In this document: positions 11,914 through 63,590 of the stretch, piece after piece
Numbering within the stretch: the stretch's first letter is position 1
How the letters are laid out: each line of letters opens with the position of its first letter
Translations under genes and position numbers: made by a program
Notes under the pieces: model-generated
Seen by the model: only the letters and a program-made list of their open reading frames with translations
Told to the model about the DNA's origin: nothing
The model's database searches: none
Assembly: GCA_026874595.1 (NCBI GenBank)
Contig: CM049308.1
Span: 53,269,624-53,333,623, forward strand
Direction of reading: 5' to 3'
From: Sipunculus nudus
Taxonomy: Eukaryota > Annelida > Sipuncula > Golfingiida > Sipunculidae
DNA: 64,000 nucleotides

Positions 11914-12596
11914 GTAAGAATAAAAATATAGCACTAAGTCACCCCGGCAATACATGAGAGTAAACAAACCAAAGGCAGGGGTTACGTTGTTACGAAGACC
12001 GTTTATTACAACTGCTCAAAAAATGATTGTTTTCGTGAATATGTTACTATAGTTTGTGAAAACATTCCTTTAAACAGTACGACTGGAAACTGTTAGGCCT
12101 ATATATTTTCTCTATATTTACAACTGCATGATGTTTTAAAGATGTGTAATGTGTTGATTGCAACAAAGGTCTAATCCTGCTCCTGAGAAGATTGTTCAGT
12201 TATACATTTTATAAAAATGGGAATATCGCTATTCATGAACGAATTGCAGACCTACATTTGCATGGATATACAGATGTGAAAATGTTAATACTCTCCCTAT
12301 CTTTATACGCAGTGATATAATTTCTTTCTTGATTTTTAAGATGACTATGAACATCCCACAACACCTTGTAGACCCATTATTCAAATTATACCTTCCGTTT
12401 CATTTCCAAGAAACCCCTTTACGTGCCCAAGATAATTTATAGTTCGAGTAATCGGGAAATTTAGCACCAACACTTTTTCCTAAGGGTTTCTTCTTTTGTC
12501 TTTATTACATTTTTCTAACCTTTCCTTCAAAACAATTTTGGTTCATTTTCTAGCATGTAGTATGTGCATTAGCTGTGAAAGTGTGCATATTTTGTT

Positions 12597-13245
12597 ATAA
12601 GTGACATATTAAGGCCAATTTGGAGCATTGTGTGATCACAGAACTGTTTGTTCAAATTGAGCACCATCACAATTTTGTTTAAATATGTTGTCAGTGCTAT
12701 CTCTTTTTTTTCAGTTTCGCTATCCTTTATCAAGAATAAGCATGAATAATGTTGCTACATATGTGTTCTCAGTCCATTTATGTCAACTTTTCCTTCTGTT
12801 GTCCTACTTCTGTCCTACTTCTGTCCCCTCTGATTCCCCACAACCCCAAACCGAAATCATATAAGTGACATATTAAGGCCAATTTGGAGCATTGTGTGAT
12901 CACAGAACTGTTTGTTCAAATTGAGCACCATCACAATTTTGTTTAAATATGTTGTCAGTGCTATCTCTTTTTTTTCAGTTTCGCTATCCTTTATCAAGAA
13001 TAAGCATGAATAATGTTGCTACATATGTGTTCTCAGTCCATTTATGTCAACTTTTCCTTCTGTTGTCCTACTTCTGTCCAACGTTTTTTTTTTCTTTATT
13101 TCCATTTCACTTTTACACAATAATGTACCGTACAGCCTTGGTGATAGCCCGAACATTCAACCTCCATTCGTAGTGATGGTTTCCGAATGCCTGTGGGGGA
13201 GAGTTCCCCTCTGATTCCCCACAACCCCAAACCGAAATCTTATGC
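12597..13245. repeat. partial tandem duplication within the CXorf65-like intron
   Basis: A segment starting ATAAGTGACATATTAAGGCC occurs at 12597 and again at 12861, 264 bp later, and the copies are essentially identical for about 220 bp (to 12818 and 13081). A second block, starting CCTCTGATTCCCCACAACCC, follows each copy, at about 12829 and about 13207. The second copy has about 125 bp between the two blocks that are absent from the first. The simplest reading is a tandem duplication followed by an internal deletion in the first copy, or a local assembly artefact that merges two alleles. Confidence 0.85.
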
Positions 13246-16960: not shown

Positions 16961-17457
16961 AAGTCCCGTGGTCTCTTCACGGTATGCGGAACCTATTTCA
17001 ATCTGGCATTTCATTTTACTGCGTCTCATGCCGCAATGTACATTTCGCGGGCCAAGTAATTGGTTTATGACAAAACAATCTTGAGACCAAAAAATCTGTT
17101 TCGCATACCGCGTCCGGTGAATTAACGCAGCTTATCACAACCTGCAACTAGTTACTACCGTAACTATGCCAGAAGGGAAACAGTTTCATTTATATAGTGC
17201 CATTTAGCCTCACGCTCCATTTCCAACATTTGCGGTAAAATAAGTAACTGGGGAATGTAGAATGATACTTCCGGCTTTCACCTGTCGCGAAAACAATCAC
17301 CTACGCTTACTGGGACATTAATATGACATATTTGCTAATTGGCAGTCGCATATTTGCAATAAATATATTAAAACTAGCATTTGAACAAGCTAAACGTTAA
17401 TGAAGAGACATTTTGCGACCTTTGAGAATTTAAAGCACAACTAGGGCATGGTTTTTT
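16961..17457. other. intron sequence, nothing recognised
   Basis: No exon or repeat recognised between the family C copy and the Helentron-like element. Confidence 0.5.
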
Positions 17458-20400
17458 AGCTCAGCTGACTGAAAGTCATCTGAGCTATAGCGATCACTCT
17501 TTGTCCGTCGTCCGTCTGTCCGTCTGTCCGTCTGTCCGTCCGTTAACCAGGCACAAATCGTAACCGCTGGACCTAGAACCTTGTAACTTGGGATTCTGAG
17601 AGGTCCATAAAAAATCTCCTTGGAAACCAGAAATTAGGTCTCTGTTACCCATATCCTTCGAGCTATGTGGTCCCAAAGTACCCCCCAGAAAAGTCAAAAA
17701 TTTCATACAAAAACTTCAATATCTCATTAACTACTTGACTGATTGTCATGATTTTTGGCATACATATTGATCATGAGATGTTACATCACTTCCTGCAGAC
17801 TGGTGGCGCCACCTGTACTGTTTGATTTTTTACGATTTTTTCCTCTCTTTTTGAGACCTTTGAGGATGCTGTCATCTGTTAGCGTGGCACAAATCGTAAC
17901 GACTGGACCTAGAATCTTCATTTTCGACACACTGAGAGACCTATGAAAAGTCTCCATGGAAACCAGAAATTAGGTCTCTGTTACCCATATCCTTTGAGCT
18001 ATGGGGCCCAAAATTACCCCCCAGAATAGTCAAAAATTTCATACAAAAACGTCAATATCTCATTAACTACATCACTGATGGTCATGATTTTTGACATACA
18101 TATTGATCATGAGATGTTTCATCAGTTTGTGCAGACTGGTGGCGCCACCTGTATTTTTCAATGTTCACGAATTGTTTTCTCCATTTTTGAGACCTTTAAG
18201 GATGTAGTTATCTGTCAACAGGGTACAAATTGTAACGACTTGACCTAGAATCTTCGTTCTTTACACACAGGGAGACCCATGATAAGTCTCCATGGAAACC
18301 TGAAATTTGGTCTCTGTTACCCATATCCTTCGAGCTATGTGGCCCCAAAGTACCCCCCAGAAAAGTCAAAAATTTCATACAAAAACTTCAATATCTCATT
18401 AACTACTTGACTGATGGTCATGATTTTTGGCATACATATTGATCATGAGATGTTACATCACTTCCTGCAGACTGGTGGCGCCACCTGTATTTGTTCGTTT
18501 TCTTTTACGAAATTTTTCTGTATTTTTGAGACCTTTAAAGATATGAACATATGTTAACAGGGCACAAATCATAAAAACTGGACCAAGAATCTTCATTCTT
18601 GACACACAGGGAGACCCATGAAAAGTCTCCATGGAAACTTGAAATTAGGTCTCTGTTACCCATATTCTTTAAGCTGTATGGGTCCAAAATACCCCCCCCC
18701 CCAGAATAATGGAAAATTTGATACAAAAACTGCAGTATTTCAATAACTACAACACTGATGGTCATGATTTTAGGCATACATATTGATCATGAGCTGTTCC
18801 ATCAGTTTCTGCAGACTGGGTGTGCCACCTCTATTTTTTTTTTCAAATTTTTACAAATTTTTTTCTTTTTTTTGAGACCTTTAAAGATGTGGTTATCTGT
18901 CAACAGGGTACAAATCGCAACAACTGGACCTAGAATCTTCATTCTTGTCATGCAAGGAGGCCCATGAAAGGTGCCTGTGGAAACTTGAAATTAGGTCTCT
19001 GTTACCCATATCCTTCAAGCTATAGGACTCCGAAGTATCCCTCAGAATAATGGACAATTTGATACAAAAACTGAAGTATCTGAACAACTAATGCAGAGAT
19101 CACCATGATTTTTTGCATGGATATTGACCATTAAGTGTTTTTATTAGTTTCTGCAGACTGGTGGAGCCACCTGTATTTTTGTATCCGCCAAAACGAAGTT
19201 TTGCGGATACTATGTTTTTGACCGAGTTCCTCCGCCGCCGCGGCGTTCGTTTCCAGAGAGCTCCTCGGAGACTAATGGACCGATTTTTCCCAAACTTACA
19301 CCTATTATCGGGTCACATGTGAACTGGTGCCTAACCAATTTGCATTGACCTCTGACCTTTCATCTCTATCCAGTGTCCATTTGTGGGTCTGTTTCCACTC
19401 ATAAACCCTCATATCTCGGGAACCGTTTGACCGATCAGGAAATAAAATTGATACAAATGTAGCCCTTGGATTGCTTTATAACATACACAAAAAATGGTGG
19501 CGCCACCTGAAACCATGTTTGCACAGTGTCCATCTGTTCATCTGCCTTGGGTTAAAATCACTCATATCTCTGCAGTGAATTGACTAATTCACCTGAAATT
19601 CGTCATGTGTATACATCCAGGATAGCTTTCTTGATTTTATGACAGGTGGCGCCACCTACGTTCACGTTCACGCTGATGACATCCAAGCTTATATCTCGGG
19701 AACCGTTTGACCGATCAGGAAATAAAATTTATACAAATGTAGCCCTTTGATAGCTCTGTAACATACACAAAAAATGGTGGCGCCACCTGTAACAATGTTT
19801 GCACAGCGTCTGTCTGTTAGTCTGCCGTGGCCTAAAATTACTCATTTCTCTGTAGTGGTTCGACATAACTGCCTAAAATTTTGCAGGTTTATACATCGTG
19901 GACAGCTTTCTTGATTTTATGACAGGTGGCGCCACCTACATTCTAGTTAACGCTGGACACATCCAAGCTCATATCTCAGGAACCATTTGACCGATTGGGC
20001 CAAAATTGTGCATGTGTTTAGATCTCACATAGGTCTTTATCATACACAAAACTGGAGGGGTTACCTGCAAAGATTTTTGCACAGTGTTTGTCTGTTTGTC
20101 TGCCATGGGCAAAAATCGCTCATATACATGTAGTGGTTTGACTTTTCTGCCTAAAATTTTGCAGGTGTATACAACTTGGACAGCTTTCTGGATTTGTGGT
20201 AGGTGGCACAACCTACATACACATTTAGGCTGCAGACATCCATGCTAATATGCAACATACCTCACTCTATTTCCCCTTGCCACTCAATCCATGCCTCACT
20301 ATCCGATTTTGGCAGATACATGTAGTCACTTGTCGGTTACCCGTATTCTAGTTTTAAAAGTTTACACATTTTTCTCTATTTTTGAGATATATAAATACAG

Positions 20401-20528
20401 ACTAAATCTTGGCCTGTTGGTTAATCTGTTTGATGCTTCAGTTGAATGGGTATATACTACCATTCTGATGATAAAATTTTCTTTTGCGAATCTCTTCCCA
20501 GTCAGCTGAGCGTCATGACCCATGGGTC
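17458..20528 (+). mobile_element. Helentron-like element 1 with tandem-repeat core, host of a nested element
   Basis: The 5' end is a hairpin, AGCTCAGCTGACT-GAA-AGTCATCTGAGCT (17458-17486, one mismatch), followed by a short TCCGTCTG minisatellite. The core consists of five tandem units of about 340 bp; the landmark ACAAAT starts at 17553, 17889, 18225, 18564 and 18910. Near the 3' end GTCAGCTGAGC (20501-20511) is the exact inverted complement of GCTCAGCTGAC at 17459-17469. It is followed by the palindrome GACCCATGGGTC (20517-20528) and TTGTA. Paired subterminal inverted repeats plus a 3' hairpin and a tandem core match non-autonomous Helentron-type elements known from molluscs. Units 1-3 carry the palindrome GGTGGCGCCACC at 17802, 18138 and 18474; in units 4 and 5 it has decayed. 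No protein is encoded. Confidence 0.7.
19181..20352 (+). mobile_element. Helentron-like element 2, nested in element 1
   Basis: It starts with the hairpin GTATCCGCCAAAAC-GAA-GTTTTGCGGATAC (19181-19210). Near the 3' end ATTTTGGCAGATAC (20306-20319) is a 12-of-14 inverted match to the 5' arm. The right boundary, at CCGTATTCTAG followed by T, is shared with the opposite-strand copy at 62431-63590 and ends in CTAG, which fits the CTRR ending of Helitrons. The core contains about three units of some 280 bp, each with two AGGTGGCGCCACCT-like palindromes (near 19497, 19648, 19778 and 19924, decayed near 20057 and 20206). To its right, TTTTCTCTATTTTTGAGATA resumes the sequence of element 1, which shows the nesting. 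Confidence 0.7.
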
Positions 20529-20984
20529 ACTTGTATTTCTTTAGTATTCACACTTGAGTCTGATCCAGGTATAGCCCACCCCATTCCGTTTTAAAGCTTT
20601 CCTTGAAGGACGGCGAGGCATATAGGGATTGATGAGTTTATTCATTTATAATATTATAAAATATTTTTGTTGAGGGACCATCTTAGGGCCCAGTGAGTGC
20701 TAAACCATCGATTCCAGTTCTTTTCCGTTATTTTTTTCTTTCTTCTGCAATATTCTGTTTCCGCTTGATCTCCCATGTGGCTGATTTTCAGATCTGGATT
20801 TTGAGCACAATATTAGTCCTAGGTCGCAAATTTGCACCTGATATTTATGTTAAGACCTTGACCTTATTCCCGAGGTCGTACACTCCACAGACGATTATCT
20901 CATTAACACTCAGATGGAAAGTGTGTGTGTGTGTGAGGGGGGGGGGGAGATTCCAGTGATGGCTTTGCGACTGCATGTATCTAG

Positions 20985-62426: not shown

Positions 62427-62430
62427 TATA
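61042..62430. other. intergenic with two (AAT)n microsatellites
   Basis: (AAT)n at 61884-61927 and 62375-62430, the latter abutting the Helentron-like element. No gene recognised. Confidence 0.6.
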
Positions 62431-63590
62431 ACTAGAATACGGGGAGTCGACAAGCGGCTTCGTGTACCCGCTTAAACCAGAGTGGGACGGGTGAAGTGAG
62501 GTATGGATTGATTGGCAAGGGGAAATAGAGAGAGGTGTATTGCACATTAGCATGGACGTCTGCAGCCGAATTGTGTATGTAGGTGGCGCCACCTGCCACA
62601 AAATCCAGAAAGTTATCCAAGGTGTATACAATTACAACATTTTAGGCAGATAAGTCAAACCACTGCCGATATATGAGTGATTTAATCCCACGGCAGACAA
62701 ATAGACGGACGCTGTTCAAAAATGGTTGCAGGTATTGTCACCAGTTTTGCGTATGTGAGATCTATACAAACATGCAAAGTTTCAGGAGGATACGTCAAAC
62801 CAGTCCTGAGATATAAGCCTGGATGTCTGAAGCCTGAACGTGAAAGTAGGTGGCGCCACCTGCCACAAAATCGAGAAAGCTATCCAAGATGTATATACAT
62901 GCACAATTTTAGGCAGATAAGTTGACCACTGACGAGGAATGAGTGATTTTGTCCCACGGCAGACAAACAGAAGGATTCTGTGCAAACATGGTTGCAGGTG
63001 GCGCCACCAGTTTTTCGTACGATAAAGAGCTATGTGGGATCTATACACATGTAAAATTTCAGGAGGATATGTCAAACCAGTCTTGAGATATAAGCTTGGA
63101 TGTCTGCAGCCTGAACGTGAATGTAGGTGGCGCAACCTGTCATAAATAAGGAAAGCTATCGAGGATGAATTCACATGGAAAACTTCAGGAGGATAAGTCA
63201 GACTACTGCAGAGATATGAGTAATTTTATCCCAAGGCAGATGAACAGATGGACGCTGTGCAAAAATGTTTGCAGATGGCGCCACCATTTTTATGTATGTT
63301 ATAAGGCTATCCAATGGCTACATTTGTGCAAATTTTTTTTTCCGATTGGTCAAACGAGTCCGAAGCTATGTGTGTTAATGTGTCAAAACAGACGCACAGA
63401 TGCACGCACTGGAGAGAGGAAAGGTCAGAGTTCAACCAAAATCAGGGCGCATTAGTTCACATGTGACCCGATCATAATTCCTAATTAAAAAAAAAATTCT
63501 GCCCAGTGGTTATGGAGGAGTTCTCCGGAAACCTATGCCTATGAAAACCTATAAGAATAAAGTATCCGCAAAAATCTGTTTTAGGGGATA
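62431..63590 (-). mobile_element. Helentron-like element 2, second copy, inverted
   Basis: Read on the minus strand it opens with the hairpin TATCCCCTAAAACAGATTTT-TGCGGATA and ends CCGTATTCTAG at the (AAT)n tract. It matches 19181-20352 in order, including CATCCATGCTAAT, CTCTATTTCCCCTTGCCA and the tandem palindromes (near 62583, 62851, 62998, with decayed forms near 63127 and 63274). Near its 3' end GTTTAAGCGGGTAC is an 11-of-14 inverted match to the start arm of copy 1. Confidence 0.7.

Follow-up and report, generated by a model that had tools for sequence, protein, structure and literature searches.

The locus analyzed here raises the question of why one short palindrome is retained in the tandem units of transposable elements whose units otherwise differ in sequence. 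In the preliminary description of the window, i.e., the whole stretch of 64,000 nucleotides of Sipunculus nudus DNA, a perfect palindrome of 12 to 14 bp was reported from two families of Helentron-like elements and was interpreted as a pair of head-to-head CTCF cores or, alternatively, as a structure needed for replication of the elements. Our results partly supported this interpretation as a whole and, as judged from the sequence, they point to a constrained, probably protein-binding box that is spread by Helentrons.

The exact 12-mer GGTGGCGCCACC was found at 10 places in the window, all of them within three tandem arrays (Table 1), which confirmed its repetition within transposon arrays; its extent reaches far beyond the window. 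The positions reported for element 1 (17802, 18138, and 18474) were exact for the 12-mer, and the recurrence in the inverted copy at 62.5 to 63.3 kb was borne out by exact 12-mers at 62582, 62849, and 62997. In element 2, the palindromes were present but the reported positions were off by 0 to 4 bases. Similarly, the length of 12 to 14 bp applied only in part, as the exact 14-mer AGGTGGCGCCACCT occurs at only 4 places in the window (19644, 19924, 62581, and 62848); in the element 1 palindromes, the first letter of the 14-mer form is T. When up to 2 mismatches were allowed, the 14-mer was found at 15 places in the window compared with a chance mean of 0.03, and none of 100 shuffles reached 15. 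TA/AT runs aside, GGTGGCGCCACC is the sole 12-bp perfect palindrome that occurs more than twice in the window. Degenerate palindrome words lie at the approximate positions 18818 to 18820, 19160, 20055, 20202, 62730, 63126, and 63274.

Table 1. Palindromes, example box, and element modules (positions are those of the window)
Feature	Positions	Strand	Basis
Element 1 5′ module: sub-terminal inverted repeat GCTCAGCTGACTG (17459-17471), inner inverted repeat, GTCC-type microsatellite (17502-17543)	17459..17543	+	
Central array of element 1 (4.8 copies of a 336-bp unit)	17550..19180	+	
TATCTC box, first element 1 unit, 82 bp ahead of its palindrome (example)	17720..17725	+	
Palindrome GGTGGCGCCACC, element 1 unit	17802..17813	.	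exact word search
Palindrome GGTGGCGCCACC, element 1 unit	18138..18149	.	exact word search
Palindrome GGTGGCGCCACC, element 1 unit	18474..18485	.	exact word search
Degenerate palindrome GGTGGAGCCACC, last element 1 unit ahead of element 2 insertion	19160..19171	.	
Element 2, nested in element 1; from GTATCCGC (inverted partner at 19203) to CCCGTATTCTAGTT	19181..20353	+	
Element 2 central array, 280-bp unit = half-units A + B	19411..20251	+	
Palindrome GGTGGCGCCACC, element 2 half-unit A	19496..19507	.	exact word search
Palindrome GGTGGCGCCACC, element 2 half-unit B (14-mer starts 19644)	19645..19656	.	
Palindrome GGTGGCGCCACC, element 2 half-unit A	19776..19787	.	exact word search
Palindrome GGTGGCGCCACC, element 2 half-unit B (14-mer starts 19924)	19925..19936	.	
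Element 1 3′ module: CAGTCAGCTGAGC (20499-20511) and palindrome TGACCCATGGGTCA (20516-20529)	20499..20529	+	
Second, inverted element 2 copy; position of outer (5′) end approximate	62430..63590	-	
Palindrome GGTGGCGCCACC, inverted element 2 copy, half-unit B	62582..62593	.	
Palindrome GGTGGCGCCACC, inverted element 2 copy, half-unit B	62849..62860	.	
Palindrome GGTGGCGCCACC, inverted element 2 copy, half-unit A	62997..63008	.	

The palindrome arrays are the central repeats of non-autonomous Helentrons (HINEs). Element 1 spans positions 17459 to 20529 and carries element 2 (19181 to 20353) nested inside it, inserted 9 bp past a degenerate element 1 palindrome (19171 to 19181), and the composite of both recurs at a further locus (L011; 2,510 bp, 91%). 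The Helentron-like nature of element 1 was upheld by its sub-terminal inverted repeats (13 bp exact, at 17459 and 20499), inner inverted repeat, GTCC-type microsatellite, central array, and 3′ palindrome. For element 2, the same designation was supported in good part: its sub-terminal repeats, GTATCCGC at 19181 and GCAGATAC at 20312, differ by one mismatch, but no left-module microsatellite was seen, and there is no clear case of a 3′ palindrome or hairpin. Such a microsatellite lies in the left module of element 1 (17502 to 17543) and of unit type F3, while a palindrome or hairpin follows the 3′ sub-terminal repeat in element 1 (14 bp, TGACCCATGGGTCA at 20516) and in unit type F5 (GGCACCTGCGGTGCC), whose sub-terminal inverted repeats at locus L027 are exact over 12 bp. 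The palindrome arrays of element 1, element 2, and F5 in L027 sit between differing HINE ends. A search of window positions 17000 to 20800 against the Rfam database gave no match at E values up to 1. Elsewhere in the window (12596 to 13079), a 264-bp unit is present in 1.8 copies at 100% identity, reflecting either a recent duplication or an assembly effect.

Besides the element 1 unit (E1) and half-units A and B, the palindrome was found in unit types F3, F4, F5, F5b, F5c, F6, E1b, and E2c. The upstream stretches of these eleven monomer types or subtypes are 30 to 81% alike (55 pairs), the more alike ones being subtypes and four rows being single sequences. As the types were found by the palindrome, its invariance over all eleven is circular, and the rule was therefore tested from the side of a second kept box, TATCTC, which lies approximately 82 bp upstream of the palindrome. 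Out of 166 TATCTC words drawn from twenty random loci and the window, 38 had a palindrome match of at least 10/12 at 70 to 88 bp downstream, 22 of these at exactly 82 bp, compared with 1 of 167 in the upstream control, and the spacing between box and palindrome is fixed genome-wide. The unit types thus diverge while the palindrome is retained, as originally proposed, but it is not the only word kept. In units found by the box, the palindrome is directly followed by T in 39 of 42 cases and preceded by A in 15 and by T in 27 of the 42. In a separate flank tally, sites near locus ends were dropped, and 3 of 44 sites were omitted because they had no orientation.

With the palindrome excluded, half-units A and B proved homologous by profile comparison (E values of 9e-10 to 0.48, most below 1e-4). 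Elements 1 and 2, compared in the same way, gave E values of 0.13 to 0.98, which is at background level (0.3 and 0.83 for non-element sites), and their kinship therefore rests on the box and the spacing. The view of two distinct families was too simple: the unit types fall into a single alignment phase and have the TATCTC box in common. At L012:4218-4836, a tandem array of 159-bp units whose starts are of the ATATCTC type contains no palindrome and possibly represents a related monomer that lacks it. We also considered the 336-bp unit of element 1 as a dimer of a 150-bp monomer and rejected this idea, since the alignment score of its two halves was reached by 94 of 300 shuffles.

In the whole assembly (1,426,538,692 bases, 153 contigs), exact GGTGGCGCCACC occurs 111,729 times and the reversed letters 14 times. 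The pattern TATCTCN{60,90}GGTGGCGCCACC occurs 67,247 times genome-wide (reversed control, 0), and TATCTCN{60,90}GCGCCACCT occurs 77,296 times (reversed control, 6). A random sample of twenty 10-kb loci, taken at even steps on contigs C1 to C4, contained 23 exact palindromes spread over 5 of the 20 loci, and 6 of its 14 arrays with a period of at least 100 bp carried the exact palindrome. Perfect units made up 17 of 47 in the random loci; if this share is typical, a rough extrapolation gives approximately 300,000 units in all. On contig C1 (1405071 to 1418984), six near-identical F5b-type units lie approximately 2.6 to 2.9 kb apart in a single orientation and may represent whole elements arranged head to tail. 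Long satellite arrays without the palindrome were also observed, one with a 180-bp unit in 34.7 copies (L021:3680-9888) and one with a 129-bp unit in 70.8 copies (L029:876-10000). Strict exact patterns, which distant relatives may escape, returned no relative from prokaryotic collections and a single match from viral collections (L051); the latter lies inside an open frame on a phage-like contig without tandem repeats and was taken as chance.

An excess of conservation of the palindrome over the rest of the unit, whose absence was named in the preliminary description as evidence against its proposal, was nearly missing before CpGs were set aside, because the palindrome ranked unimpressively in small samples. 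Among 12-bp stretches, it ranked 86 of 299, 43 of 136, and 5 of 146 in the window, and 29, 76, 61, 15, and 117 of 134 when random loci were added (one of 13 E1 units was dropped in this test). Our early reading that copies lack excess conservation was overturned by the comparison without CpGs, in which the palindrome arms were kept at 0.883 and other G/C bases at 0.801 (47 units in 7 of 20 random loci; F4, with 4 units and rank 117/134, was absent from this comparison). The difference of 0.082 had a locus bootstrap range of 0.042 to 0.098 and was positive in 6 of the 7 loci. The corresponding values were 0.935 and 0.807 for the window units (n = 17), and 0.975 and 0.882 for arrays picked by the palindrome (n = 104 units), which are biased and unused for the conservation claim. 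It should be noted that the shared consensus was built from 168 units, 104 of which came from arrays picked off palindrome lists, and that TATCTC was kept at 0.940 in random loci, above the arms, while unit detection leans on TATCTC. The excess within families is moderate once CpGs are put aside. Of the 16 units in which the central CpG has changed, 12 show CA or TG in its place. When the 64 units from random loci and the window were split into halves of 32, the ratio of divergence in the arms to that in other bases was 0.27 in the younger half and 0.61 in the older one; this rise speaks against protection of single copies by the host, and we read the values as constraint acting on living source elements, followed by nearly neutral decay.

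On balance, we favor the explanation that the palindrome is kept in HINE source elements as a predicted binding site that aids the element and is scattered by transposition. The palindrome is one of two boxes retained in a presumably old repeat monomer, which occurs as short central arrays in several HINE families; the unit grammar is TATCTC, approximately 82 bp, and then [A/T]GGTGGCGCCACCT. At the level of source elements, the palindrome may be kept for a DNA-binding protein that would act in cis to the benefit of the element, for example, by maintaining access to the array; transposition would then scatter the sites across the genome. Inserted copies decay, the arms more slowly than other G/C bases. 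We favor this explanation because 67,247 places combine box and palindrome against none in the reversed control, because the spacing of exactly 82 bp predominates downstream of TATCTC (22 of 38) and matches are nearly missing upstream (1/167), because the arms exceed other G/C bases in random loci by 0.082, because differing HINE ends carry palindrome arrays, and because T follows the palindrome in 39/42 units and CTCF, as described below, keeps its core-reading residues. It is weakened by the unremarkable ranks in small samples and the better retention of TATCTC than of the arms, by the L012 array, which has the box without the palindrome, and by the large share of palindrome-picked units (104/168) in the shared consensus.

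The sequence points to CTCF as the best-supported named candidate for the predicted reader. The consensus of CTCF comprises a 5′ part, CCASY, and the core AGRKGGCRS in its 3′ part, and AGRKGGCGC has been reported as the insect CTCF core. Among the literature matches listed for AGGTGGCGC, none was plainly on CTCF. In all 8 unit types examined, the core AGRKGGCRS is matched 9/9 on one strand (AGGTGGCGC), although this fit is largely implied because the palindrome was the chosen word; the added T is present in 39/42 units found by the box. The CCASY part, in contrast, scored only 1 to 2 of 5 in every one of these 8 types. Furthermore, the two cores of the palindrome overlap by 4 bp (GCGC), and therefore both presumably cannot be filled at once. 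Three CTCF-core-like AGRKGGCGC words also lie outside the arrays (window 8400, 24636, and 25120).

A query with human CTCF returned one clear genome match (L052; C11:67037578-67038510), which is 56% identical over 11 fingers (next match, 40%), lies within an open frame of 989 codons and has CTCF chains as its best solved-structure matches. Fingers 6 to 11 used as the query again returned this place first (44%), and a closer gene was absent among the matches listed. Compared with the human chain, L052 keeps R339, E362, K365, R377, D390, K393, R396, and Q418, which speak for CTCF as the reader, as well as S364, R368, Y392, R448, and D451; G420, T421, and M424 in finger 6, which speak against it, are changed, as are S450 and V454. 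Identical residues number 20/28, 23/28, and 21/28 in fingers 3 to 5, a likewise high 20/29 in finger 2, and 17/30, 10/30, and 8/25 in fingers 6, 7, and 8; the 11-finger stretch is intron-free, with fingers 2 to 5 conserved and fingers 7 and 8 drifted. Published structural studies place R339 at C30/G31, K365 at G29, R377 at the G25 phosphate, and Q418 at A24, i.e., on AGRKGGCG (PMC10094706), and describe joint reading of the CpG by fingers 3 and 4 (PMC12264921). As L052 keeps the core-reading residues, CTCF should still read the core in this species. The CTCF-finger query gave more than 300 matches (319), many on C16 and others on C7, C9, C11, and C6, suggesting that other C2H2 zinc-finger genes form large clusters.

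A tentative possibility, and a special case of the explanation favored above, is that CTCF occupies the palindrome in vivo by way of the one-strand AGGTGGCGC core and that the elements spread arrays acting as insulators or loop stops. However, the two arms have decayed to a similar extent (12 and 13 changes among 42 units), and the far arm, GGTG, which a one-strand reader would not need, is intact in up to 87% (67,247/77,296) of units with the box and GCGCCACCT. These observations, together with the presence of both arms in all 11 types (a circular point, as the types were found by the palindrome), would suit a dimeric, dyad-symmetric DNA-binding protein, encoded by the host or by the Helentron, that reads both arms. 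Such an unnamed protein fits the symmetry better than CTCF and is nearly as likely, but it comes without a named candidate, and the outer letters are asymmetric, with T after the palindrome and either A or T before it. More speculatively, Helentron arrays may have supplied approximately 100,000 intact (perhaps 300,000 total) palindromic CTCF-core sites, usable in either orientation, that co-evolve with CTCF, its core-reading fingers being frozen and the others drifted; if so, an architectural protein and its transposon-borne sites would evolve together.

That the palindrome has no present function appears unlikely. One ancestral monomer, amplified in recent bursts, would then account for the arrays, and base composition or gene conversion for the modest excess, in line with the unremarkable small-sample ranks and with decay after insertion chiefly at the CpG; however, the arms exceed other non-CpG G/C bases, and types only 30 to 81% alike upstream nevertheless have palindrome and spacing in common. 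Least likely is a DNA structure or break site acting in replication or array growth, for which one can cite a 12-bp palindrome at 13 of 16 array breakpoints of the clam satellite phBglII400 (PMC5139131, the available text of which does not give its letters), the insertion of element 2 just past a degenerate palindrome, and the better folding of the 20-bp F5 form as single-stranded DNA than of shuffles (z of −3.22), but the common palindrome form has a 4-bp stem of −2.2 kcal/mol, four unit consensuses show no folding advantage over shuffles (z of −0.25, 0.60, −1.06, and 0.21), five 10/12 variants carry no compensating change, and of the 6 array ends in the window, just 2 (19180, which is the insertion point, and 63291) lie at most 10 bp from a palindrome-type word.

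Mammalian SINEs spread CTCF sites, and gypsy carries an array of Su(Hw) sites. As in our case, these are sites of architectural proteins on transposons, arrayed in gypsy, but they belong to other element classes, whereas our site is a palindrome and has no counterpart of the 5′ CTCF part. Closer in mechanism are the Helitron-borne heat shock elements of Caenorhabditis (PMC6927752) and the Helitron-borne ISX of Drosophila (PMC4384637), in which rolling-circle-type elements likewise scatter sites for host proteins; binding was studied there, whereas here the protein is predicted and the sites stand in arrays and in far higher number. Among the literature matches listed for Helitron and CTCF, nothing fitting appeared, and none of the papers containing the 12-mer or the 10-mer GTGGCGCCAC concerned molluscs or transposons as judged by title and start of abstract, although one of them deals with chromatin insulators (PMC13083895). 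Should the reader prove to be CTCF, transposon arrays would rank among the chief sources of architectural sites in a spiralian; for spiralians, the evidence of loop formation is thin (PMC10658181). If the reader is another protein, the palindrome is a ready bait for it.

The closest known systems are Cg_HINE of the Pacific oyster and the Cg170/BIV160 bivalve satellites, which, in the sections available, share Helentron ends, a GTCC-type microsatellite, and short central arrays with the elements described here (PMC7492417; PMC5139131). Some Cg_HINE elements even carry two arrays in a row, as does element 1 with the nested element 2 (PMC7492417). The palindrome also resembles the CENP-B box in satellites, mentioned in PMC5139131, in that one short word is kept while monomers diverge, although the word is a different one. 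Two kept segments in otherwise unlike monomers, compared here by description and not by letters, and their persistence in diverging bivalve Helentron monomers have already been reported, with the binding protein unnamed in the text available (PMC5139131; PMC7492417), and the Cg_HINE paper, as far as its text was at hand, contains no link to CTCF (0 occurrences of the name; PMC7492417). Here, one such box is spelled out in full, tallied across the genome, and linked to a candidate protein that can be tested.
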